Source: Bacteroidota bacterium (lineage in GTDB: Bacteria > Bacteroidota > Bacteroidia > Palsa-948). Taken from it: a stretch of DNA of 64,000 bases. The DNA lies in NCBI GenBank assembly GCA_016195025.1, contig JACQAL010000038.1:1-64000 (forward strand), read 5' to 3'. The notes under the pieces are model-generated. The model was given only the letters and a program-made list of their open reading frames with translations, searched no databases and was not told the origin of the DNA. Both the position numbers and the translations under genes were made by a program. Shown in pieces: positions 9,799 to 63,035 of this stretch (the stretch's first letter is position 1; every line of letters starts with the position of its first letter).

Positions 9799-9806
9799 GA
9801 ATCAAC

Positions 9807-9866
9807 AAAAAACGAAAGTATACGAAAAATACGAAATGAAATACAATTAGTGGTAATTAGTGTAAT
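9807..9866. repeat. Intergenic tacgaaaaatacgaa repeat (partial)
   Basis: Between the permease and the methyltransferase, acgaaagtatacgaaaaata resembles one arm of the elements at 15236-15326 and 62902-63035. It is followed by attagtggtaattagtg, resembling half of the tactaat family, so it looks composite. Confidence 0.5.
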
Positions 9867-9873
9867 CAGTTGC

Positions 9874-10683
9874 TTATTTCCATGCTTTGACTATCAATCC
9901 TGTTCCGGTTTTGTGATTTGTGTAAGTGTCAAAAAAATTCAGCACAAAAGAAATCGGATACGCTAGGAGATAATAAAAAGGAAGAAGGATGAAAAATATT
10001 TTTGAAGCGCTGAGCATTTGCATGGGATATTTCATAGACAATCTCCACGAAATTTTTCCGGGAGTTCCGTAAGAATATCCAGGTTCTACTTTTGAAAATC
10101 CTGCCAACTTTAATTTATCTTCAATCTCTTTTATGTTGTAGCCATCGCGCACGTGTTCGCCAATGAAAGAACCTTCATGGCCTTCGTGCACATCGCTCCC
10201 GCCCTGGTCGGATGGAGTGGAGATTAGAAGCATTCCGCCTTTTTTCAGCGAAGCGTGAATGTTTTTAAAAACCAAAACGTCTTCCAAAATATGTTCCATC
10301 ACATCTACAGAAAGCGCGAGATTGTATTTATCTTCCTGAACAAATTTTGTTAAGTCGGCAACTTCAAACTTTACCTTTGTTTTTCCGATTTGCTGAAAAA
10401 AATTATTGCAGTCGGCAACTTGTTCATCTTTTACATCTACCGCCAGAATTTTTGCTTTCGGAAATTTTTTTGTCATCCAGTAACTGTATTGACCAAATCC
10501 TGAACCAGCGTCAAGAATATTTATTTCTTTTTCTCCTGACTCCGAACCCCAATCTCTCAACTCTTTATGCACATGCCAGCATCGCAGCAAAAGCAAGTCG
10601 AGCAGGTTGTAAAATAATTTTCTGAGGAAAGGATTTTTATTAAAAACATTTCCGAGTGAGCGCTTGATTGGGTCGTACTCCAT
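9874..10683 (-). CDS. Class I SAM-dependent methyltransferase
   Basis: 269 residues. The SAM-binding motif I, LDAGSGFGQY, lies at residues 57-66. An acidic residue follows in LAVDVKD, and SVDVMEHILED is a typical motif IV/post-I region of the Methyltransf_11/25 type. The C terminus is hydrophobic. The ATG at 10681-10683 comes 2 nt after the rbfA stop; the frame could extend only to a TTG overlapping rbfA. The substrate is unknown. It is probably co-transcribed with rbfA and the LolC/E gene. Confidence 0.75.
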   Translation of the reverse strand: MEYDPIKRSLGNVFNKNPFLRKLFYNLLDLLLLRCWHVHKELRDWGSESGEKEINILDAGSGFGQYSYWMTKKFPKAKILAVDVKDEQVADCNNFFQQIGKTKVKFEVADLTKFVQEDKYNLALSVDVMEHILEDVLVFKNIHASLKKGGMLLISTPSDQGGSDVHEGHEGSFIGEHVRDGYNIKEIEDKLKLAGFSKVEPGYSYGTPGKISWRLSMKYPMQMLSASKIFFILLPFYYLLAYPISFVLNFFDTYTNHKTGTGLIVKAWK

Positions 10684-10685
10684 AA

Positions 10686-11027
10686 TCAAATCTTCTTAAA
10701 GATTTCATCCATCTTCTCCGCATAATCTGCCGATTCATCTATGAAGAAAGCAATCTCCGGAATGATGCGAACTTGTTTTTTTATTCTTGCTCCTAATAGT
10801 TTTCTTATTTCTCTTGATTGCTTTCTCACTGCTTCCAGAATTTTTTCTTTTTCTTTTACTCCGAAAATGCTGAGATAAGTTTTTGCAAAAGATAAATCAG
10901 GACTCATGAATACGTGCGTAACGGTAATTAATCCTGAGCCGAAAGCATTTTTCATTTCCTTCTGGAAAATGTCAGCAATCTCTTTCTGAATTAAACTTGA
11001 AACTTTATTTTGCCGCAGCGTTGCCAT
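10686..11027 (-). CDS. rbfA: Ribosome-binding factor A
   Basis: 113 residues, usual length. RbfA binds the 30S subunit late in assembly and aids 16S rRNA 5'-end maturation. The start (TLRQNKVSSLIQKEIADI) and the central VTHVFMSPDLSFAKTYLSIF strand-helix region are characteristic of the KH-like fold. It leads the rbfA-methyltransferase-permease group, and upstream lies a palindromic repeat gap shared with the divergent ABC exporter. Confidence 0.9.
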   Translation of the reverse strand: MATLRQNKVSSLIQKEIADIFQKEMKNAFGSGLITVTHVFMSPDLSFAKTYLSIFGVKEKEKILEAVRKQSREIRKLLGARIKKQVRIIPEIAFFIDESADYAEKMDEIFKKI

Positions 11028-11044: not shown

Positions 11045-11178
11045 AACCGTACGAAAGTACGAAAGAAAAACATTTTGGATTATGATTAACATAGAACGAG
11101 TGAAAACTATTTTCATGCAACATTTTTCTAATCTGAGCGTTTCGTATTTTTCGTATACATTCGCTTTTCGAAGATTTA
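11045..11178. repeat. Intergenic cgtacgaaag / tttcgtatttttcg palindrome
   Basis: The left part (11045-11070, cgtacgaaagtacgaaag) and right part (11139-11178, tttcgtatttttcgtata then cgcttttcgaagattt) are inverted relatives, filling the divergent gap between rbfA and the ABC exporter. The same words recur at 15236-15326, 38023-38052 and 62902-63035. Confidence 0.65.
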
Positions 11179-15235: not shown

Positions 15236-15326
15236 AAATCTTCGAAAAACGAAACGATACGAAAAATACAAAAAAAGGAAATGGTTTTCATTTCGTATTT
15301 TTCGTACAAGTTCGTGTTTCGCGGAT
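15236..15326. repeat. Intergenic aaatcttcgaaaaacgaa palindrome
   Basis: Left arm 15236-15269 (aaatcttcgaaaaacgaaac then gatacgaaaaatac) and right arm 15291-15326 (tttcgtatttttcgtac then gtgtttcgcgga) are imperfect inverted copies filling the whole gap between the esterase start and the purE stop. Confidence 0.72.
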
Positions 15327-15838
15327 TAACTAACGCGACTGTTAAATTTATGCTGCTTAAGTTCTTCATTCGCCTTGAGAACTTTCTCTTTCAGTTTTTC
15401 TTTGAAAGTTTTTAATTCAGCAGAAAGTTTTTCATCGCCTGTAGCAAGAATTTGCACGGCAAGTATTCCGGCATTTTGTCCGCCATCCACGCCAACAGTC
15501 GCAACCGGAACTCCCGGAGGCATTTGCACAATCGAGAGAAGAGAATCCCATCCATCGAGAGAAATAGTTGATTTGCACGGAACGCCAATCACAGGACAAG
15601 TAGTGAAAGCCGCAATCACTCCGGGAAGATGCGCTGCGCCACCAGCGCCAGCAATGACAACTTTAATTCCGCGCGAAAAAGCATTTTTTCCAAACTCCGC
15701 AACTTGCTCGGGAACCCTGTGAGCCGAGAGCGCATTCACCTCGAAAGGAATTTTAAACTGGTCAAGAATTTTTGCTGCTTCCTGCATGACAGGCCAATCG
15801 CTGGTGCTTCCCATGATGATTGAAACTTTCGGAGTCAT
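15326..15838 (-). CDS. purE: N5-carboxyaminoimidazole ribonucleotide mutase
   Basis: 170 residues, standard for class I PurE, which rearranges N5-CAIR to CAIR in purine synthesis. The motifs GSTSDWPVM (about 8-16), SAHRVPE and GAGGAAHLPGVIA are all present. The start is the ATG at 15836-15838; upstream in-frame sequence has no family similarity. The purK partner is not in the window. It is divergent from the gamma-glutamyltransferase gene. Confidence 0.93.
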   Translation of the reverse strand: MTPKVSIIMGSTSDWPVMQEAAKILDQFKIPFEVNALSAHRVPEQVAEFGKNAFSRGIKVVIAGAGGAAHLPGVIAAFTTCPVIGVPCKSTISLDGWDSLLSIVQMPPGVPVATVGVDGGQNAGILAVQILATGDEKLSAELKTFKEKLKEKVLKANEELKQHKFNSRVS

Positions 15839-17681: not shown

Positions 17682-18224
17682 ATGGCAAAGACAGTAACAA
17701 TACACGGAAAAAAATTTAAGTCGTTGATTGCTTCTGCGAAGATTCAGAAAACTATTTCTTCGATTGCAAAAAAGATTGATAAAGATTTTGCAAATCAAAG
17801 ACCGCTTTTTCTCTCTGTGCTGAATGGCTCTTTTCTTTTCTCTGCCGATTTGCTGAAAAAAATAAAATGCGAATGCGAAATTTCTTTCATCAAAGTTTCT
17901 TCCTATTCAGGAATAAATTCAACAGGAAATGTAACTACACTAATCGGACTTAATGAAAATCTCGCAGGTAGAACTGTAATTATTGTAGAAGACATTGTTG
18001 ATTCCGGCAACACACTTGAGAAAGTAATTGGCGAATTAAAAAAACATAATCCGAAATTAATAAAAGTTGCTGCGCTGTTTTTCAAACCCGAAGCATACAC
18101 AAAAAAAATTAAACTCGACTATAAAGGAATTGATGTGCCGGATAAATTTTTGCTTGGCTACGGTTTAGATTATGACGGGCTTGGAAGAAATTTGCAGGAC
18201 GTTTATGTGATGGATGAGGTTTGA
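17682..18224 (+). CDS. hpt: Hypoxanthine phosphoribosyltransferase
   Basis: 180 residues, usual length. It salvages hypoxanthine/guanine to IMP/GMP with PRPP. The PRPP-binding loop is VIIVEDIVDSGNTL (near 103-116), and the N-terminal VLNGSFLFSADL and C-terminal LLGYGLDYDGLGRNL motifs are typical. It opens the hpt-adk-obg group that is common in Bacteroidota; here an S23-like gene is wedged between hpt and adk. The stop codon overlaps the first bases of a repeat arm (18224-18241). Confidence 0.92.
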   Translation: MAKTVTIHGKKFKSLIASAKIQKTISSIAKKIDKDFANQRPLFLSVLNGSFLFSADLLKKIKCECEISFIKVSSYSGINSTGNVTTLIGLNENLAGRTVIIVEDIVDSGNTLEKVIGELKKHNPKLIKVAALFFKPEAYTKKIKLDYKGIDVPDKFLLGYGLDYDGLGRNLQDVYVMDEV

Positions 18225-18241
18225 TGGATGATGTATGATGG
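18224..18241 (+). repeat. Left inverted repeat flanking the S23-like gene
   Basis: atggatgatgtatgatgg matches, with one mismatch in 18, the reverse complement of 18659-18676. It starts at the last base of hpt, 26 nt before the S23-like ATG. Confidence 0.85.
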
Positions 18242-18267: not shown

Positions 18268-18639
18268 ATGGATCCCAAGACGCAATTATTGTTAGACAGA
18301 ACTTTTGAATTTGGTATCGAGATTTTGAAATTTCTCGGACAACTTCCTTTCAATAAAATTCATGATATTCCTAAAATGCAATTGGCGAGAGCTGCCACTT
18401 CTATCGGAGCAAACTACGAGGAATCTCAAGCTGCAGAATCTAAAAGAGATTTTTGTCATAAGATTGGCGTTGTTTGTAAAGAATCGAGAGAATGTGTTTA
18501 TTGGTTGAGAGTTTTGCTGAAGTTATATTCTGAAGATAAATACTCTGCAAAACTGAATAAGTTTTTATCAGAGGCAAAAGAATTCAAAGCAATATTTACT
18601 TCTATAAAAATGACTGCTGAAGGCAAAAAGCGCAAGTGA
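18268..18639 (+). CDS. Four-helix-bundle protein of the S23 (23S rRNA intervening sequence) family
   Basis: 123 residues with the family pattern LARAATSIGANYEE near 45-58, then DFCHKIGVVCKESRECVYWL and a helical C terminus. S23-family proteins were first seen encoded inside intervening sequences that interrupt 23S rRNA genes; their biochemical role is not settled. Relatives of the fold serve as accessory proteins of diversity-generating retroelements, but no reverse transcriptase or template repeat is present here. The gene lies between hpt and adk and is bracketed by an 18-bp inverted repeat (17 of 18 matches), so it looks like an inserted cassette. No obvious promoter of its own. Confidence 0.85.
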   Translation: MDPKTQLLLDRTFEFGIEILKFLGQLPFNKIHDIPKMQLARAATSIGANYEESQAAESKRDFCHKIGVVCKESRECVYWLRVLLKLYSEDKYSAKLNKFLSEAKEFKAIFTSIKMTAEGKKRK

Positions 18640-18658
18640 TTTTAACATCATCCATAAA

Positions 18659-18676
18659 CCATCATACATCAACCAT
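18659..18676 (-). repeat. Right inverted repeat flanking the S23-like gene
   Basis: ccatcatacatcaaccat, inverted partner of 18224-18241, ends at the base before the adk ATG. A further catcatccat word lies at 18646-18655, suggesting a longer imperfect stem. Confidence 0.85.
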
Positions 18677-19252
18677 ATGTTAAATATTGTTTTATTCGGA
18701 CCTCCGGGAGCTGGCAAAGGAACACAAGCGGTTAAACTTGTAGAAAAATATAAACTCATTCATCTTTCCACGGGAGATATTTTCCGCGCGAATATTAAAG
18801 GCGGAACGGAACTTGGAAAACTTGCGAAGAGTTATATGGATGCAGGAAATTTAGTTCCCGATGAAGTCACAATAAAAATGCTGGAATCGGAAGTGAGCAA
18901 AGAAAAAAATCCGAAGGGATTCATTTTCGATGGCTTTCCCCGCACTACTGCGCAAGCGCAAGCGCTCGATAAATTTCTTGCAGGAAAAAATCTTTCTATT
19001 ACAATGACGCTTGCTCTCGAAGTGGACGAAGAAGAACTTACGAAAAGAATTATTCTTCGAGGAAAAGAATCCGGAAGAGCCGATGACCAGAATGAAGAAA
19101 TTGTTCGCAACCGAGTGAAAGAATACAATAACAAAACCGCACCTCTGAAAAATTTTTATAAAAAGCAAAACAAACTGAGAGAAGTAAAAGGAATCGGAAG
19201 CATTGAACAAATTTTTTCTGCTTTATGTAAACAAATTGAGAGCATCTACTAA
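18677..19252 (+). CDS. adk: Adenylate kinase
   Basis: 191 residues, the short type without a zinc-finger LID. It converts AMP and ATP to two ADP. The P-loop GPPGAGKGT is at residues 7-15, with HLSTGDIFRA and the FDGFPRT nucleotide-binding motif. The ATG follows directly on the right arm of the S23 cassette. The final codons (ESIY) and stop lie in the first bases of the tactaat palindrome at 19246. Confidence 0.95.
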   Translation: MLNIVLFGPPGAGKGTQAVKLVEKYKLIHLSTGDIFRANIKGGTELGKLAKSYMDAGNLVPDEVTIKMLESEVSKEKNPKGFIFDGFPRTTAQAQALDKFLAGKNLSITMTLALEVDEEELTKRIILRGKESGRADDQNEEIVRNRVKEYNNKTAPLKNFYKKQNKLREVKGIGSIEQIFSALCKQIESIY

Positions 19253-19337
19253 TGTACTAATGGATACTAATCTACTAATGAATACATGCAGCGGCTGTTG
19301 ATTAGTATATTAGTACAGATTGGTAAATTAGTAGATA
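19246..19337. repeat. Intergenic tactaat-family palindrome between adk and obg
   Basis: Left arm 19246-19280 (tctactaatgtactaatgga then tactaatctactaat) and right arm 19301-19337 (attagtatattagtacaga then ttggtaaattagtagata) are imperfect inverted copies, each with four TACTAAT-like words, around a short loop. Confidence 0.8.
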
Positions 19338-25014: not shown

Positions 25015-25905
25015 TTATAAAATTCCTTCCGACACATGATAATTTGAAAAATATTTTTTTATTTTTTTTTCGCTTTCAAAAATTCCATACACAGCCGATC
25101 CGCTTCCGCTCATGGAAGCATAGAGCGCTCCATGGGAATAAAGTTTCTCTTTTATTTTTTTCAGTTCCGGATGTTTTGGAAAAATCACTTTTTCAAAATC
25201 GTTCACAATAGTTTCTTTCCACTTTTTAATAGGTAATTTGGAAGGTTGGAAGAATGGAAGGTTGGAAGGTTGGGGAGTTTTCCATTCTTCCATTCTTCCA
25301 TTCTTCCATTCTTCCATCATTGAATATGCTTCAGCCGTGCTCACATGAATAGTTGGATAAACAACAGCAATGTGACAGCCGCTTAAATTTAATTGTATGG
25401 ATTCAAGTTCATCTCCTTTGCCTTTTGCCAATGCGGGCTGGTTGCTGATGAAAAAAGAACAATCGCTTCCGAGTTGCCGCGCATAATGGTGAAGTTCTCC
25501 CCATGCCAATCCCAGTTCAAATTCTTCGTTCAGCAATTTGAGCATGAAGGCGCCATCAGCCGAGCCACCACCCAGCCCTGCCCCCATGGGAATTGCTTTG
25601 TGAAGAAAAATTTTTACCGCAGGAAGCGGAAAATCTTTTTTTAGAAGTTCGTATGCCTTCACGCATAAATTATTTTTTTCTTCTCCCTGAATTTTTATTC
25701 CCGAAATCAGAATTTCAATTTTTGACTTTTCCGTAAGGAGTCCTTCGGACTGACTTTTGACTTTTGACTTGGAAATTATTTCCAGCGCATCAAACAAAAT
25801 TCCTTTCAGCGGCACCATCACCGTTTCAATATCGTGAAAGCCGTCTTCGCGCTTGCGGATAATTTTTAAACCGATATTTATTTTTGCGTTAGGAAAAGTA
25901 ATCAT
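25015..25905 (-). CDS. ispE: 4-diphosphocytidyl-2-C-methyl-D-erythritol kinase with two in-frame repeat insertions
   Basis: 296 residues, longer than the roughly 265-270 usual in related bacteria. It phosphorylates CDP-ME in the non-mevalonate isoprenoid pathway. FPNAKINIGL opens the protein; the GHMP ATP loop PMGAGLGGGSADGAF is intact. The excess length comes from two repeat-encoded stretches: about residues 45-62 (SKSKVKSQSEGLLTEKSK) and about 196-224 (MEEWKNGRMEEWK and PSNLPFFQPSKLP). Both flank the core motifs and keep the frame, so the enzyme is probably active. Confidence 0.9.
   Translation of the reverse strand: MITFPNAKINIGLKIIRKREDGFHDIETVMVPLKGILFDALEIISKSKVKSQSEGLLTEKSKIEILISGIKIQGEEKNNLCVKAYELLKKDFPLPAVKIFLHKAIPMGAGLGGGSADGAFMLKLLNEEFELGLAWGELHHYARQLGSDCSFFISNQPALAKGKGDELESIQLNLSGCHIAVVYPTIHVSTAEAYSMMEEWKNGRMEEWKTPQPSNLPFFQPSKLPIKKWKETIVNDFEKVIFPKHPELKKIKEKLYSHGALYASMSGSGSAVYGIFESEKKIKKYFSNYHVSEGIL
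25236..25318. repeat. ggaaggtt/cttccatt hairpin inside ispE
   Basis: About four ggaaggtt-type octamers on the left, about five cttccatt octamers on the right, forming an imperfect hairpin. It closely resembles 62447-62532 and 1207-1284. Confidence 0.78.
25718..25773. repeat. tttgact-word repeat with small palindrome inside ispE
   Basis: Copies of ttttgac words flank agtccttcggact (stem AGTCC/GGACT, 25739-25751). The same heptamer occurs four times in tandem in parB (37205-37235) and near accA (25960-25999). Confidence 0.68.
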
Positions 25906-43788: not shown

Positions 43789-43800
43789 GCAAAAATTTTA

Positions 43801-43908
43801 TCTACGAATTTACTAATTGGTACTAATGTACTAATGAAATACAAAACACAAATAGAAATAAAGATGCTGTTATTAGTAAATTAGTAGAGATTGGTACATT
43901 AGTAGATA
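43801..43908. repeat. tactaat-family palindrome between ccmF and ccmE
   Basis: tctacgaatttactaattgg then tactaatgtactaat (43801-43835) is inverted as attagtaaattagtagag then attggtacattagtagata (43872-43908). No gene lies in the loop. Confidence 0.8.
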
Positions 43909-44534: not shown

Positions 44535-45190
44535 AGGTCAGTTTGTAATTTTATTTTTTGAATTCTAATTCTCAGTGTCATTATCCAAACGCCAAGCAAT
44601 GTCCAGCCGATGACAGCGGGATAAAAGACCATTCGCATGTGGTTATCCAAATCATATTTTCCAAAACCCGGATTTCCTCCGTTGCCGGGATGAAGCGAAT
44701 CGCTCAGGCGCGGATAAATCATGATGAAGACGAGCATCATCACATAAGCGAAAATATTATAGACCGCAGAAACTTTTCCGCGCTTCTGTTCATCGGTGAT
44801 TGCGTTGCGTAAAACCAGATATGCAAAATAAGTAAGCATGGTGATTGCCGCTCCATTTAATTTTACATCATTCGTCCACCACGCTCCCCAGGTGTAGCGA
44901 GCCCAAATGCTTCCTGTGAGTAAACCAAGAATTCCAAACATGATTCCGACATTGGTTGCTTCTGAGGCAATAATATCCCGCTCTTGTTTTCCCGATGAAA
45001 GATGACGAATGCTGAACACTAATGAAACAGTAAATAAAATCATCATCGCAAACCACATGCACACATGAAAATATTGGTTGCGGATGGTTTCGTGAAGAAT
45101 GGGAAGGCGGGGAACATCAGAAAGGAATCCTGCTGTAATTGTATACACTAAAAATAAAACGCAAAGTATTTTCCACCAATTTTTTCTCAT
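44531..45190 (-). CDS. ccmC: Heme handling protein CcmC
   Basis: 219 residues with six membrane segments. It contains the tryptophan-rich WARYTWGAWWTNDVK motif near residue 105, the CcmC/CcsA heme-handling signature. It loads heme onto CcmE. Its 5' end abuts the tactaat palindrome at 45187. Confidence 0.9.
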   Translation of the reverse strand: MRKNWWKILCVLFLVYTITAGFLSDVPRLPILHETIRNQYFHVCMWFAMMILFTVSLVFSIRHLSSGKQERDIIASEATNVGIMFGILGLLTGSIWARYTWGAWWTNDVKLNGAAITMLTYFAYLVLRNAITDEQKRGKVSAVYNIFAYVMMLVFIMIYPRLSDSLHPGNGGNPGFGKYDLDNHMRMVFYPAVIGWTLLGVWIMTLRIRIQKIKLQTDL

Positions 45191-45286
45191 CTACTAATTT
45201 ACTAATCTCTACTAATGTACTAATATGAGTTTTCTTTTGGAGTTTTGCAGTTCATTAGTACATTGGTACTAATTAGTACATCCGTA
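45187..45286. repeat. tactaat-family palindrome between ccmC and ccmB
   Basis: atctactaatttactaat then ctctactaatgtactaat is inverted as attagtacattggtactaat then tagtacatccgtagat; a short loop and no gene. Confidence 0.8.
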
Positions 45287-45288
45287 GA

Positions 45289-45945
45289 TTAATCTTTCCA
45301 AAGATATGGAAATAATAAGTAAGCAAGAATGATAACAATCACATCTAAAGAAAAAAGTACTCCGAAATATTTCAGGTTGTAATAAAAATCAGTTCCGTCA
45401 ATTGCGTTTTGAGAAAGGCGTATTATCACTATGAGAATCGGCATGATGATAGGAAAAGAAAGAATAGCCATGATGGTAAAATTATTATGCGCTTTGGACG
45501 CAATGGCAGACATCATGCTGAGCAAAGAAGAAATTCCAATGGAGCCAAGAATAATAATAAGGAAGAAGAGCGAAAGATTGGAAACAATATTTCCCATGAA
45601 CAACGAATAAAACCCGAAACATATCAGAGAAAGAATCAGCATGAGAATTGAATTGTAAATTATTTTAGAAAGAACAAATGCTTGCGGACTTGCAATTGTA
45701 AAGTAGTAAAGCATTCTTCCTTTACTTTCCTGCAAAAAACTTTTTGCGATTGAATTAATCGAAGCGAATAAAATGATGATCCAGAACAAAGCGTTCCATG
45801 TATTCACTTCAATACTATTTTTGAAAGAAAGATAGCAGATGAAAACCGTTGCAACTACATAAAGAAGAATTCCTCCGAGCGCATAACGCTGGCGGAATTC
45901 AATTAATAATTCTTTTCCGATTAAAGCGGAGATTTCTTTCAGCAT
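45289..45945 (-). CDS. ccmB: Heme exporter CcmB
   Basis: 218 residues with six membrane segments. The start EISALIGKELLIEFRQRYAL and ASPQAFVLSKIIYN are CcmB-like. It is the permease of the CcmAB ABC transporter that drives release of holo-CcmE; ccmA is not in the window. Confidence 0.87.
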   Translation of the reverse strand: MLKEISALIGKELLIEFRQRYALGGILLYVVATVFICYLSFKNSIEVNTWNALFWIIILFASINSIAKSFLQESKGRMLYYFTIASPQAFVLSKIIYNSILMLILSLICFGFYSLFMGNIVSNLSLFFLIIILGSIGISSLLSMMSAIASKAHNNFTIMAILSFPIIMPILIVIIRLSQNAIDGTDFYYNLKYFGVLFSLDVIVIILAYLLFPYLWKD

Positions 45946-56624: not shown

Positions 56625-57667
56625 AAATAAAATTTGGAATAGTCGGCTGCGGACATATTGGCAAACGCCATGCTGAAATGGTTTCGCGCCATCCCGAAGC
56701 AGAACTGGTTGCTCTCTGCGATATTCTTCCGAAAGAAAAATTATCGCTTGAAAAATTTTCTGCTCCGTTTTATTCTTCTATAGATGAAATGCTCGCGGAT
56801 GCTGAGCGGAGTCGAAGCATTGAAGTAGTGAATATCTGCACGCCAAACGGATTGCATGCTGCTCTTTCCGTCAAAGCGCTTGAAGCAAAAAAACACGTGG
56901 TGTGTGAAAAACCGATGGCGCTTTCAAAAGCAGATTGTGAAAACATGATTCACAAATCCATGCAGGTGCAGAAAAATATTTTTGTGGTGAAGCAAAATCG
57001 TTATTCACCGCCTTCCGCCTGGATAAAAGAATTGATTGACAAAAAAAATCTCGGGGATATTTATTTGGTGCAGTTGAATTGTTACTGGAACCGCGATGAG
57101 CGCTATTATAAAAAAGGAAGTTGGAAAGGAACAAAAGAATTTGATGGCGGAGTTCTCTTTACTCAGTTCTCACATTTCATAGATATTATGTACTGGCTTT
57201 TCGGAGATATAAAAGATATTCAGGCGAAGTTCAAAAACTTCAATCATAAATCAACAACAGAGTTTGATGATGACAGCGGATTGGTAAGCTTTAATTTTCT
57301 AAATGGCGGAATGGGCTGCATTCAGTATTCAACTTCGGTGTGGGATAAAAATATGGAGAGCAGCATTGCCGTGATTGGAAGCAAAGGCACGGTGAAAATT
57401 GGCGGGCAGTATATGGACAAAGTTGAATATTGCCACATTGAAAATTATTCTATGCCGAATTTGGCTGAGACAAATCCTGCGAATGATTACGGTGGATACA
57501 AAGGTTCTGCAAATAATCATCCATTGATGATTCAAAATGTAATCGATACGTTGAAAGGAAGAAATACCATCACTGCCAACGCGCTCGAAGGAATGAAAGT
57601 GGTAGAGATAATTGAAAAGATATATTCTTTAAAACCTGCTTATGAGCATTTACAAAAAACTTTCTAA
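56621..57667 (+). CDS. Gfo/Idh/MocA oxidoreductase (WbpB-like)
   Basis: 348 residues. [15 protein letters not shown] binds NAD, and [11 protein letters not shown] is the EKP motif. WbpB-type enzymes oxidise C3 of UDP-GlcNAcA. Residues 61-66 (AERSRS) are encoded by a gctgagcggagtcgaagc repeat, extending the loop before VVNICTPNG. It overlaps the next gene by 26 nt. Confidence 0.85.
56801..56818. repeat. gctgagcggagtcgaagc repeat in the WbpB-like gene
   Basis: Matches a common Bacteroidota dispersed word (cttcgac...gctcagc) seen also near 2385-2400. Encodes AERSRS in frame. Confidence 0.55.
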
Positions 57668-58937
57668 GAGAGAATCTAAACTCGCGGTCATCGGTCTCGG
57701 CTATGTGGGTCTTCCGATTGCGCTGGAGTTCGCGCGGAAAATTTCTGTGATTGGTTTTGACATCAATCAGAAAAGAATTGATTTGATGAAAAAGAAAATT
57801 GATCCGAGCAACGAGCTGGAGAAAAAAGATTTTGAGGGCTGCGATATTTCTTTCACCACTTCGCTGGATGAACTGCGCAAAGCAAATTTTTTAATCGTCA
57901 CCGTTCCCACTCCGATTGACGAGCACAATCTTCCCGATTTGAAACCGCTCATTGGTGCTTCCACATCTGTAGGAAAAGTTTTGAAGAAAGGAGATTATGT
58001 GGTGTACGAATCCACAGTTTACCCCGGCTGTACAGAGGAAGATTGCATTCCTGTTCTCGAACAACATTCGAAATTGAAATTCAAAAAAGATTTTAAAGTT
58101 GGTTATTCTCCTGAGCGAATTAATCCCGGAGATAAAAATCACACCATCACAAATGTGAAGAAAGTTGTTTCCGGCTGTGATGATGAATCGCTTGAGGAAG
58201 TTGCAAAAGTTTACGAGATGATTGTGAAAGCAGGAGTTCACCGCGCGCCAACAATCAAAGTTGCCGAAGCGGCAAAAATTATTGAGAACACGCAGCGCGA
58301 TCTAAACATTGCGCTGATGAATGAACTGAGTATCATCTTCAGCAAAATGGATATAAACACGTTTGATGTGCTCGAAGCCGCTGGAACAAAATGGAACTTT
58401 CTGAAATTTTATCCGGGACTTGTTGGCGGGCATTGCATCGGAGTGGATCCATATTATCTCACGCATAAAGCAGAATCGCTCGGCTATCACGCGCGCGTGA
58501 TCAATGCCGGCAGATATGTAAATGATTCCATGGGATTTTATGTGGCGAAAAATACGGTGAAGAAAATTATTTCTTCCGGAAAAGATATTTCAAAAGCAAA
58601 AGTTTTGGTGATGGGTGCTACGTTCAAAGAAGATGTCACAGACATTCGCAATTCAAAAGTTGCCGATGTTGTGAAAGAATTAAAGTCCTATTCCGTTCAG
58701 GTGGATGTTACCGACCCTCACGCTGATTCGGATGAACTCATGCACGAATATGGTTTTGGATTAGTGAAGATGAATGGAAAAAATTATGACGCGGTGATCG
58801 TGGCGGTGAATCATAAAGATTATTTGAAGCACGATGAAAAATATTTTAAATCCATTCTTACTTCGCAGGGAATTTTGGTTGACATAAAAGGAATCTACAG
58901 AGGGAAGATCAAAAATATTTCTTACTGGAGCCTATAA
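57642..58937 (+). CDS. Nucleotide-sugar dehydrogenase (WbpA/TviB type)
   Basis: 431 residues. The NAD motif LGYVGLPIALEFA is near 18-30 and the catalytic Cys is C265 in GLVGGHCIGVDPYY. STVYPGCTEEDC and the C-terminal half match WbpA/TviB UDP-N-acetylhexosamine 6-dehydrogenases. It makes the UDP-HexNAcA used by the WbpB/D-like enzymes. The next gene cluster is interrupted by a GxxExxY insertion 38 nt on. Confidence 0.88.
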   Translation: MSIYKKLSKRESKLAVIGLGYVGLPIALEFARKISVIGFDINQKRIDLMKKKIDPSNELEKKDFEGCDISFTTSLDELRKANFLIVTVPTPIDEHNLPDLKPLIGASTSVGKVLKKGDYVVYESTVYPGCTEEDCIPVLEQHSKLKFKKDFKVGYSPERINPGDKNHTITNVKKVVSGCDDESLEEVAKVYEMIVKAGVHRAPTIKVAEAAKIIENTQRDLNIALMNELSIIFSKMDINTFDVLEAAGTKWNFLKFYPGLVGGHCIGVDPYYLTHKAESLGYHARVINAGRYVNDSMGFYVAKNTVKKIISSGKDISKAKVLVMGATFKEDVTDIRNSKVADVVKELKSYSVQVDVTDPHADSDELMHEYGFGLVKMNGKNYDAVIVAVNHKDYLKHDEKYFKSILTSQGILVDIKGIYRGKIKNISYWSL

Positions 58938-58940
58938 CTC

Positions 58941-58974
58941 CTACTAAATACCAATAAAGTACCAATGTACTAAT
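58941..58974 (+). repeat. Left tactaat-family arm flanking the GxxExxY gene
   Basis: ctactaaataccaataaagt then accaatgtactaat aligns with the reverse complement of 59371-59403 at 28 of 33 positions with one gap. Confidence 0.85.
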
Positions 58975-58975
58975 C

Positions 58976-59368
58976 ATGGAGAAAAAACTTATTGATGATT
59001 TAGTATATCCCGAACTTAGTTTTGAAATTGTCGGTTGCGCATTTGAGGTTTACAATGAATTAGGATTCGGACATTCAGAAAAAGTTTATCAGAAAGCACT
59101 ATCTGTGTCTTTTAAGAATCACAAAATTAACTATAAAGAACAAGTTTATTTTCCTGTGAAATTTAAAAATGAATTAGTTGGCAAAGGGTTTTGTGACTTC
59201 ATTATAGATGAGAAAATAATTGTTGAATTAAAAAAAGAAGACAGGTTTTCCAAATCAAATATTGATCAGGTGAATCAGTATTTGAAATCAAGTAACCTTA
59301 AATTAGCACTGCTTATCAACTATACTTCTACAGGAGCAATTTTTAAACGATTAGTTAACATTAAGTAA
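58976..59368 (+). CDS. GxxExxY family protein
   Basis: 130 residues. GHSEKVY gives the GxxExxY motif near residue 32, in a helix before a PD-(D/E)XK-like core (DFIIDEKIIVELKKED near 76-91). The family is suspected to be nuclease-like, but its role is not established. It is placed between two capsule-sugar genes and bracketed within a few bases by inverted repeats of the tactaat family, so it looks inserted as a cassette. Confidence 0.87.
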   Translation: MEKKLIDDLVYPELSFEIVGCAFEVYNELGFGHSEKVYQKALSVSFKNHKINYKEQVYFPVKFKNELVGKGFCDFIIDEKIIVELKKEDRFSKSNIDQVNQYLKSSNLKLALLINYTSTGAIFKRLVNIK

Positions 59369-59370
59369 AG

Positions 59371-59404
59371 ATTAGTAAATTGGTATCAATTAGTATTTGG
59401 TAGA
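59371..59404 (-). repeat. Right tactaat-family arm flanking the GxxExxY gene
   Basis: attagtaaattggtatcaat then tagtatttggtaga, the inverted partner of 58941-58974, starts 3 nt after the GxxExxY stop. Confidence 0.85.
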
Positions 59405-59422
59405 AATAATAAAAACTGAAAA

Positions 59423-60487
59423 TTGAAAAAGATTTTAATTACAGGCGGAGCAGGATTTATCGGAAGCCATGTCGTTCGATTATTTGTAAATAAATATTCC
59501 GATTATAAAATTGTAAATCTCGATAAACTTACTTATGCTGGCAATCTTGAAAATCTTCGCGATGTTGAGAAGAAATCAAATTATGAATTTGTAAAAAGAG
59601 ATATTGTTGATGCAAATTTCATTCAAGAACTTTTTTCCAAAAATAATTTTGATGCTGTCATTCATCTCGCTGCCGAATCTCATGTGGACAGAAGTATAGC
59701 AACTCCGATTGAATTTGTAAATACAAATGTGATTGGCACAGTTACTCTCCTGAACACTGCAAAAAAATTCTGGCAATCTTCTTTAGAAAATATTCCGAAA
59801 AGAAAATTATTTTATCATGTGAGTACGGATGAGGTATACGGTTCGCTCGGAAAAAAAGGAAAGTTTAAAGAAACTACCTCCTATGATCCGCATAGTCCGT
59901 ATTCAGCAAGCAAAGCAAGCTCGGATCATTTTGTGAGAGCATATCACGATACGTATGGCTTGCCCGTAAAAATTTCTAATTGTTCGAACAATTATGGCTC
60001 GTATCATTTCCCTGAAAAATTAATTCCGCTGGCGATAAATAATATCAAGAATAATAAATCCGTTCCTGTTTATGGAAAAGGACAAAATGTTCGTGACTGG
60101 CTTTTTGTAGAAGACCACGCGCGCGCGATTGATGTCATTTTTCATAGGGGAAAAGTTGGAGATACTTACAACATAGGTGGAAACAATGAATGGAAAAATA
60201 TTGATTTGATAAAACTTCTTTGCAAAATAATGGATAAGAAACTCGGAAGAGAAAAAGGCGCGTCTGCAAAACTCATCACGTTTGTAAAAGACAGAGCCGG
60301 ACATGATTTACGTTACGCAATCAACTCCTCTAAACTTCAGCGCGAATTAAAATGGAAACCAAGTTTGAAATTTGAAGAAGGCCTTGAAAAAACTGTTGAC
60401 TGGTATTTGTCGAATGATGCGTGGTTGAAAAATGTAACGAGCGGTGATTATCAAAAATATTACGAGCAGCAATACATAAAGCGATAG
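59423..60487 (+). CDS. rfbB: dTDP-glucose 4,6-dehydratase
   Basis: 354 residues from a TTG at 59423 (no ATG fits before KKILITGGAGFIGSH). HVSTDEVYGSLG, YSASKASSDH, NNYGSYHFPEKLIPL and DRAGHDLRYAI are RmlB hallmarks. It makes dTDP-4-keto-6-deoxyglucose for deoxysugar synthesis. The rmlA, C and D genes are not seen here. The stop overlaps the next start (TAGTG). Confidence 0.93.
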   Translation: MKKILITGGAGFIGSHVVRLFVNKYSDYKIVNLDKLTYAGNLENLRDVEKKSNYEFVKRDIVDANFIQELFSKNNFDAVIHLAAESHVDRSIATPIEFVNTNVIGTVTLLNTAKKFWQSSLENIPKRKLFYHVSTDEVYGSLGKKGKFKETTSYDPHSPYSASKASSDHFVRAYHDTYGLPVKISNCSNNYGSYHFPEKLIPLAINNIKNNKSVPVYGKGQNVRDWLFVEDHARAIDVIFHRGKVGDTYNIGGNNEWKNIDLIKLLCKIMDKKLGREKGASAKLITFVKDRAGHDLRYAINSSKLQRELKWKPSLKFEEGLEKTVDWYLSNDAWLKNVTSGDYQKYYEQQYIKR

Positions 60488-62901: not shown

Positions 62902-63035
62902 AAATCTTCGAAAAGCGAATTTATACGAAAGTACGAAATGAAAAAATCGTAGGTTGTTTTGACTTATAACAACTGATTATTGTTATTGAGTATTGGCTTT
63001 CGTATTTTTCGTATTGTTTCGTTTTTCGAAGATTT
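62902..63035. repeat. aaatcttcgaaaagcgaat palindrome at the exonuclease 3' end
   Basis: Left arm 62902-62937 and right arm 62999-63035 share the aaatcttcgaaaaRcgaa / atacgaaaRtacgaa pattern, R standing for the variable base. The right arm lies inside the exonuclease gene and encodes its C-terminal FEKRNNTKNTKANTQ. Confidence 0.75.

Follow-up and report, generated by a model that had tools for sequence, protein, structure and literature searches.

Why does a small GxxExxY gene lie inside a pair of inverted arms between two genes of an operon, and how is it related to the gene-less palindromes that repeat the same word elsewhere in the same DNA? We examined a 64,000-nt stretch (the window) of contig C38 from a 3.5 Mb Bacteroidota assembly, and compared it with genomes of the same genus and class and with contigs from other phyla. 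The results lead us to regard the segment at about 58939-59406, with moderate confidence, as a mobile genetic element that consists of one GxxExxY gene in the loop of an inverted repeat.

A gene in a hairpin between two operon genes

The arms fit tightly around the gene. As the first-pass annotation had claimed, the left arm ends one base 5' of the ATG at 58976 and the right arm starts at the third base past the stop codon, and the arm pairing that it reported is reproduced on recomputation (Table 1). The pair has a local alignment score of 39, equalled by 5 of 20,000 random 393-nt spans of the same genome, some of which may themselves be real palindromes. Against the consensus of the gene-less tactaat palindromes the left arm scores 42 (shuffle maximum 24); the right arm alone scores 34 against the corresponding right-arm consensus, a value not above the maximum from 500 shuffles (35).

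Table 1. Features of the window discussed in the text, with the evidence for each.
Feature	Position	Strand	Evidence
Left arm of S23/IVP element, word TGATGGATGA	18208..18234	+	inverted-repeat search, locus L015
S23/IVP four-helix-bundle ORF	18268..18639	+	PF05635 E 8.8e-13; TIGR02436
Right arm of S23/IVP element	18645..18671	+	inverted-repeat search
Gene-less palindrome, tactaat word	19244..19336	.	palindrome search, alignment, covariance model
Gene-less palindrome, S23-type word TGGAAGG	25239..25321	.	inverted-repeat and palindrome search
Gene-less palindrome, tactaat word	43799..43908	.	palindrome search, alignment, covariance model
Gene-less palindrome, tactaat word	45189..45289	.	palindrome search, alignment, covariance model
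Upstream host gene, nucleotide-sugar dehydrogenase	57642..58937	+	ORF; same-genus junctions
Left inverted arm, words TACTAAA/TACCAAT/GTACCAAT/GTACTAAT	58941..58974	+	28/33 complementary to right arm, one gap
GxxExxY (PDDEXK_3) ORF, 130 aa	58976..59368	+	PF13366, TIGR04256, nuclease residues, AlphaFold model
Right inverted arm	59371..59403	+	pairs with left arm
Downstream host gene, RfbB-like nucleotide-sugar dehydratase	59423..60487	+	ORF; same-genus junctions

The ORF belongs to the GxxExxY family (TIGR04256 / PF13366) by both profile and motif: it matches PF13366 with E 1.5e-31 (109.6 bits against a cut-off of 22) and TIGR04256 with E 1.8e-31 (108.9 bits against a curated cut-off of 35), and carries the GxGxxExxY motif as GFGHSEKVY. 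It is the sole ORF of at least 80 aa filling the space between the arms, and it is not a HUH/Tyr transposase. The catalytic D and ExK and the following QxxxY expected of a RecB/Cas4-like member of the PD-(D/E)XK superfamily are present as D74, E84xK86 and Q98xxxY102, with D74, E84, K86 and Y102 invariant in 37 sequences and Q98 conserved in at least 90%; D/ExK/QxxxY is the signature of the RecB/Cas4 branch of that superfamily. In a fold search with the AlphaFold model (pLDDT 91), the best PDB matches were SSO0001 (E 6e-4), which we take to be a Cas4, followed by AddAB and lambda exonuclease. The best reading of residues and model is that the window protein is a predicted small PD-(D/E)XK nuclease of the end-processing RecB/Cas4 branch. 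It shares fold and the D, ExK and QxxxY residues with the Cas4/RecB-family nucleases; unlike them, it is a free-standing protein of 120-140 aa within an inverted repeat rather than part of a CRISPR or recombination operon, and its TM-score to SSO0001 is only 0.53-0.58. A PADLOC search gave no match. In one published case, GxxExxY was annotated at a position where cas4 would have been expected (PMC8934634).

In four other species of the genus (G001, G003, G004 and G005) the two host genes adjoin at 1-14 nt with no palindrome between them, which bears out the earlier claim that the gene interrupts a tight operon. Arms and gene together form an inserted unit, which lies downstream of the stop codon of the dehydrogenase gene and ahead of the start of the dehydratase gene. 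In G006 the corresponding junction is occupied by a different insert, 1.46 kb long, whose ORF is unrelated (L136, G006:C163:4500-6690). Comparable empty or near-empty junctions were found in relatives for most other GxxExxY and S23 loci of this genome that we tested, among them those beside genes read as nuoE/nuoF, FKBP/panB, hpt/adk and rpsK/rpsD. In other species some of these junctions bear short repeats of other kinds, which makes the junctions themselves sites of repeated use. No target-site duplication was recognised by eye at pairs of filled and empty sites, the species compared being divergent.

Short intergenic repeats such as gtcattctgagcgcagcgaagaatct are frequent at empty junctions (L127-L131, L161-L165), which suggests that further repeat families use the same gaps as the elements. 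At the junction before a pdxA-like gene (L172-L177, G001-G006), an S23 gene is present in the window's own genome and in G006, and gene-less palindromes of two other words are present in G003, G004 and G005.

The window holds a second gene of this design. The best reading of the S23/IVP ORF and its arms (Table 1) is a parallel gene-in-hairpin element, with S23 as a parallel system. At another S23 locus (L011), G005 has the full gene, whereas G004 retains the same arms and the same leader but lacks most of the ORF; the G004 palindrome is an internally deleted, gene-less derivative of the S23 element. The first-pass expectation that arms should occur with and without a gene at one locus therefore holds in part: it is borne out at this S23 locus, where the genome under study also has the gene, and, with other words, at the pdxA-like junction; for the tactaat word itself the relatives offer only the fully empty site with no palindrome.

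The motif AATAC[AT] occurs within 45 nt 5' of the start of 21 of 80 S23 genes and 2 of 72 GxxExxY genes. S23 loci bearing it include L006, L011, L012 and L015, and the same AAATACAAAA lies in the loop of the tactaat palindrome at 43799.

Arms, words and gene-less palindromes

The genome encodes 5 PF13366 and 11 PF05635 genes, most with inverted arms and each locus with its own word. Using a single threshold throughout (arm score of 28 or more), we found arms at 42 of 72 GxxExxY genes (Fisher 2e-21) and 57 of 80 S23/IVP genes (Fisher 6e-31) in the class, against 7 of 183 other ORFs of the same loci (4%); mismatched flank pairs gave null rates of 3.3% for GxxExxY and 1.3% for S23. That the two unrelated families share a gene-in-hairpin design, as the first-pass annotation proposed, is thus upheld, and the outcome that it named as telling against its reading, that most GxxExxY genes lack arms, is not what the class presents, although about 40% of them fall below the threshold. 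The median gap between arm end and start or stop codon is 4-14 nt, and the arms begin a median of 5 nt (GxxExxY) or 1 nt (S23) after the upstream stop codon. Neighbours were called from longest ORFs rather than annotation, and since most of the genomes are drafts, their assemblies may have lost or broken some repeats. A scan of genome contigs across phyla found arms at 35 of 71 GxxExxY loci (null 4.6%) and reached Acidobacteria, Verrucomicrobia, Planctomycetota and Proteobacteria; its query was a single GxxExxY protein, an alignment of diverse members being too poorly conserved to serve as seed.

The notion of one tactaat word family proved too narrow, and a universal tactaat family can be discarded: words are specific to loci, and it is the grammar of the arms that is specific to the protein family. 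S23 arms are 7-nt tandem repeats (z 27 at lag 7 and 21.7 at lag 14). GxxExxY arms have a looser spacing of 8-10 nt and a degenerate core, RCN[ACG]AK, which occurs at least twice in 86% of the GxxExxY arms of the class (8% when shuffled) and in 14% of S23 arms. The core recurs at least twice in 80% of cross-phylum GxxExxY arms (shuffled 13%), a figure that is not a clean held-out test because the core was framed after viewing the GxxExxY arms of both sets. TACTAAT fits this core, so the tactaat palindromes of the window belong to the GxxExxY class.

Arm similarity tracks protein similarity, and does so even among GxxExxY pairs with less than 50% identity (Spearman 0.31, p 0.002, 500 permutations). 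The link is weak for S23, and there it vanishes (not significant) below 50% protein identity. Among arm differences between related elements, 107 are paired and 164 have lost pairing in at least one element, so pairing is only partly kept as the words drift. Compensatory changes inside the tactaat family are uninformative because its copies are nearly identical.

The three gene-less palindromes of the same word that had been reported in the window are real, and they are part of a larger population. A 462 kb sample of the genome yielded 26 palindromes, of which 8 carry the tactaat word or one near it; model and pattern searches supplied the remaining counts. Gene-less palindromes outnumber gene-bearing ones. 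When seven tactaat palindromes (the three of the window and four from elsewhere in the genome) are aligned, their arms are almost invariant, which suggests recent spread. A covariance model of the tactaat palindrome gives 76 strand-hits in the genome. Because palindromes are usually hit on both strands, this amounts to roughly 40 places. Other members of the genus have 6-41 strand-hits and four other genomes 0-16.

Three observations concern the loops and arms of gene-less palindromes. First, GGCTGT, a motif picked after being seen, is common to the loops of 5 of 26 gene-less palindromes with arms of both GxxExxY and S23 type, where about 0.3-0.4 would be expected (19244-19336 in the window; L252:15262-15352 and 17775-17882; L254:5977-6055; L266:5869-5977). 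Second, another dispersed gene-less family (AATCTTCGAAAAACGAA...TACGAAAAATACGAAA) is present in the window at 15237-15327 and 62902-63035 and also at L255:1909-2035 and L256:13165-13255; we identified no gene-bearing copy of it. Third, cgaa arms of this family at 9800-9836 and 11140-11176 of the window bracket genes at 9874-11027, which we considered as a third cargo family and rejected; they match RbfA and a methyltransferase, and the arms are probably two separate palindromes rather than the ends of a cargo element.

Word abundance depends on the presence of the gene. Among 247 genomes of the class, five or more copies of the word CRCARAGNCRCARAG occur in 54 of the 158 genomes with GxxExxY and in 0 of the 89 without it (p 7e-13); the former hold 1576 copies (mean 10, maximum 172) and the latter 26 (mean 0.29, maximum 3). 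The association persists when the label is permuted within the 28 taxonomic families having both states (p 5e-5), with the family mean higher in GxxExxY-bearing genomes in 22 and lower in 3. CRCARAGNCRCARAG was chosen as a GxxExxY-arm word and copies flanking the genes themselves were counted, but where a genome has only a handful of the genes, such flanking copies are too few to explain tens of occurrences. The S23 word AGTNGGCAGTNGGCAGT behaves similarly (43 of 192 genomes with S23 against 0 of 55 without), in a comparison unstratified by family. Reversed-pattern controls were near zero.

The match of word to protein clade is less exact. A GxxExxY gene of the cognate clade is present in 6 of 11 genomes bearing the word AACGCNGATGACNCNGAT and in 2 of 25 others (p 0.005), with the 60% identity cut set after viewing the values and a rank test giving 0.05. 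The five exceptions leave a strict rule of one word to one protein unsupported, and the one-to-one match of word and clade is only a loose one.

Mechanism and competing explanations

A gene between inverted palindromes, dispersed gene-less copies, arms linked to the protein and abundance dependent on the gene together point to a mobile, REPtron-like palindrome with GxxExxY as its factor, an explanation that we consider reasonably probable. The same pattern is the basis on which RAYTs were proposed to mobilise REPs (PMC2817692). On this view the element, whose arms are tandem degenerate octamers, entered the gap that separates two consecutive operon genes, and the dispersed gene-less palindromes are its putative non-autonomous relatives, at least some of which would have arisen through internal deletion. 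The trans-acting factor of the family would be GxxExxY: it may recognise the arm word and cut or process the palindrome as a single-strand hairpin or cruciform, and this processing would lead to copies elsewhere. S23/IVP proteins would have a parallel role for palindromes of their own. What the sequences show directly is the anatomy, the insertion as judged from empty sites, the arm grammar of each family, the covariation of arms with protein, the link between word abundance and presence of the gene, and one deletion derivative, which belongs to an S23 element. We infer the binding, the cutting and the movement, including movement at the level of DNA, and all function discussed here is read from sequence. 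The wider proposition, that GxxExxY mobilises REP-like palindromes in many phyla by a RecB/Cas4-type nuclease reaction on hairpin DNA, with no known transposase chemistry, and that S23/IVP is a second, convergent class with arms of 7-nt words, we offer only tentatively.

Several observations count against the REPtron-like reading. S23 shares the design without a nuclease, no target-site duplication was recognised, the match of word to clade is loose, and a sizeable minority of GxxExxY genes in the class have no arms at the threshold used. The strongest competing observation is orientation, since plain DNA transposition does not predict co-directional insertion: leaving out loci with an uncalled neighbour, 40 of 45 GxxExxY loci and 34 of 40 S23 loci are co-directional with both neighbours, against 50% for genes in general (40 of 47 on including two GxxExxY loci, absent from the 45, whose neighbours both lie on the opposite strand). 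This fits a role at the transcript level, or selection for expression and against antisense inserts.

A transcript-level element would have its arms pair in the operon mRNA with the gene in the loop, and RNase III would cut the stem so that the insert is tolerated, the protein being cargo or a help in RNA folding. Besides the orientation bias, the window element folds with its arms paired at -99 kcal/mol, and there is a precedent in the S23-encoding intervening sequence of Coxiella, a stem-loop that RNase III excises in vitro and whose stem measures 28 bp (PMC4990558). However, such a role leaves the dispersed gene-less copies and their dependence on the gene unexplained; gene-less palindromes show no preference for gaps between co-directional genes (13 of 21 lie there, whereas 69% of all adjacent pairs are co-directional); and only 30 of 71 cross-phylum loci are co-directional on both sides, with ORF calling unreliable in GC-rich genomes. 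As a rival explanation we think it rather unlikely, and the two ideas are compatible: an element may move as DNA and be tolerated through RNA.

If instead the palindromes were pre-existing targets, spread by something else, and GxxExxY and S23 were separate small mobile genes entering their loops, the excess of gene-less over gene-bearing palindromes would follow, as would the different elements at the same gene junctions (L014 and L013 loci). We regard this as improbable, given that arm grammar differs between the two protein families, that arms track protein similarity, that many empty sites have no palindrome and that the words are rare in genomes without the gene. More improbable still is selfish homing, by which GxxExxY would cut insert-less alleles and break repair would copy the block, the palindromes being unused in trans. 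Known homing nucleases include PD-(D/E)XK folds, and the predicted nuclease and the clean insertion between two genes are in keeping with such a role, but within one genome the elements differ in word and lie at unrelated junctions, and homing would not explain why gene-less copies are abundant. Finally, although arms built of short repeats raise the odds of accidental self-complementarity, an artefact of AT-rich, microsatellite-like spacers has almost nothing left to commend it in view of the mismatched-pair (1-3%), shuffle, random-span, other-ORF and reversed-pattern controls, and of GC-rich phyla that show the same design with GC-rich words.

Known systems and significance

The REPtron-like reading invites comparison with REP/RAYT systems (REPtrons; PMC2817692, PMC3733652), in which a gene is likewise flanked by inverted palindromes near its start and stop, gene-less palindromes are dispersed, arms vary with the protein and abundance is tied to the presence of the gene. 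The differences are that the protein here has a PD-(D/E)XK fold whereas RAYT is a HUH/Tyr transposase, that the arms are tandem degenerate octamers around RCN[ACG]AK whereas a REP is a single imperfect hairpin tagged GTAG, and that the elements are strongly co-directional inside operons. The 23S rRNA intervening sequences with an S23 ORF (PMC4990558) also place an S23/IVP gene in an inverted-repeat stem-loop. Here that design occurs outside rRNA: the elements, including that of the window, lie within operons and are flanked by protein genes. GxxExxY is a family unrelated to S23, the arms consist of tandem words and gene-less copies are dispersed. With MITEs and their parent insertion sequences the elements share internally deleted, non-autonomous copies that retain the terminal inverted repeats; unlike those, they are without a DDE, HUH or other transposase family, their arms differ between copies, and target-site duplications were not recognised between the divergent species compared. 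We found no paper linking GxxExxY or PDDEXK_3 with flanking repeats in a search limited to openly licensed PMC papers, which is weak evidence of absence.

The GxxExxY gene and the scattered hairpins look like one so far undescribed system of jumping DNA. GxxExxY is present in 158 and S23/IVP in 192 of the 247 class genomes, where they are frequent annotations without a function, and the word repeats found around the two families (CACAGAG, CGCAAAG, TGGAAGG, CAGTNGGCAGT) occur dispersed in many genomes. Once each class of repeats is assigned to one protein family, two unknowns become a single system open to test. The source of many intergenic palindromes may thereby be explained, S23, known mainly from rRNA inserts, gains a wider setting, and there may be a new chemistry for moving palindromic DNA.
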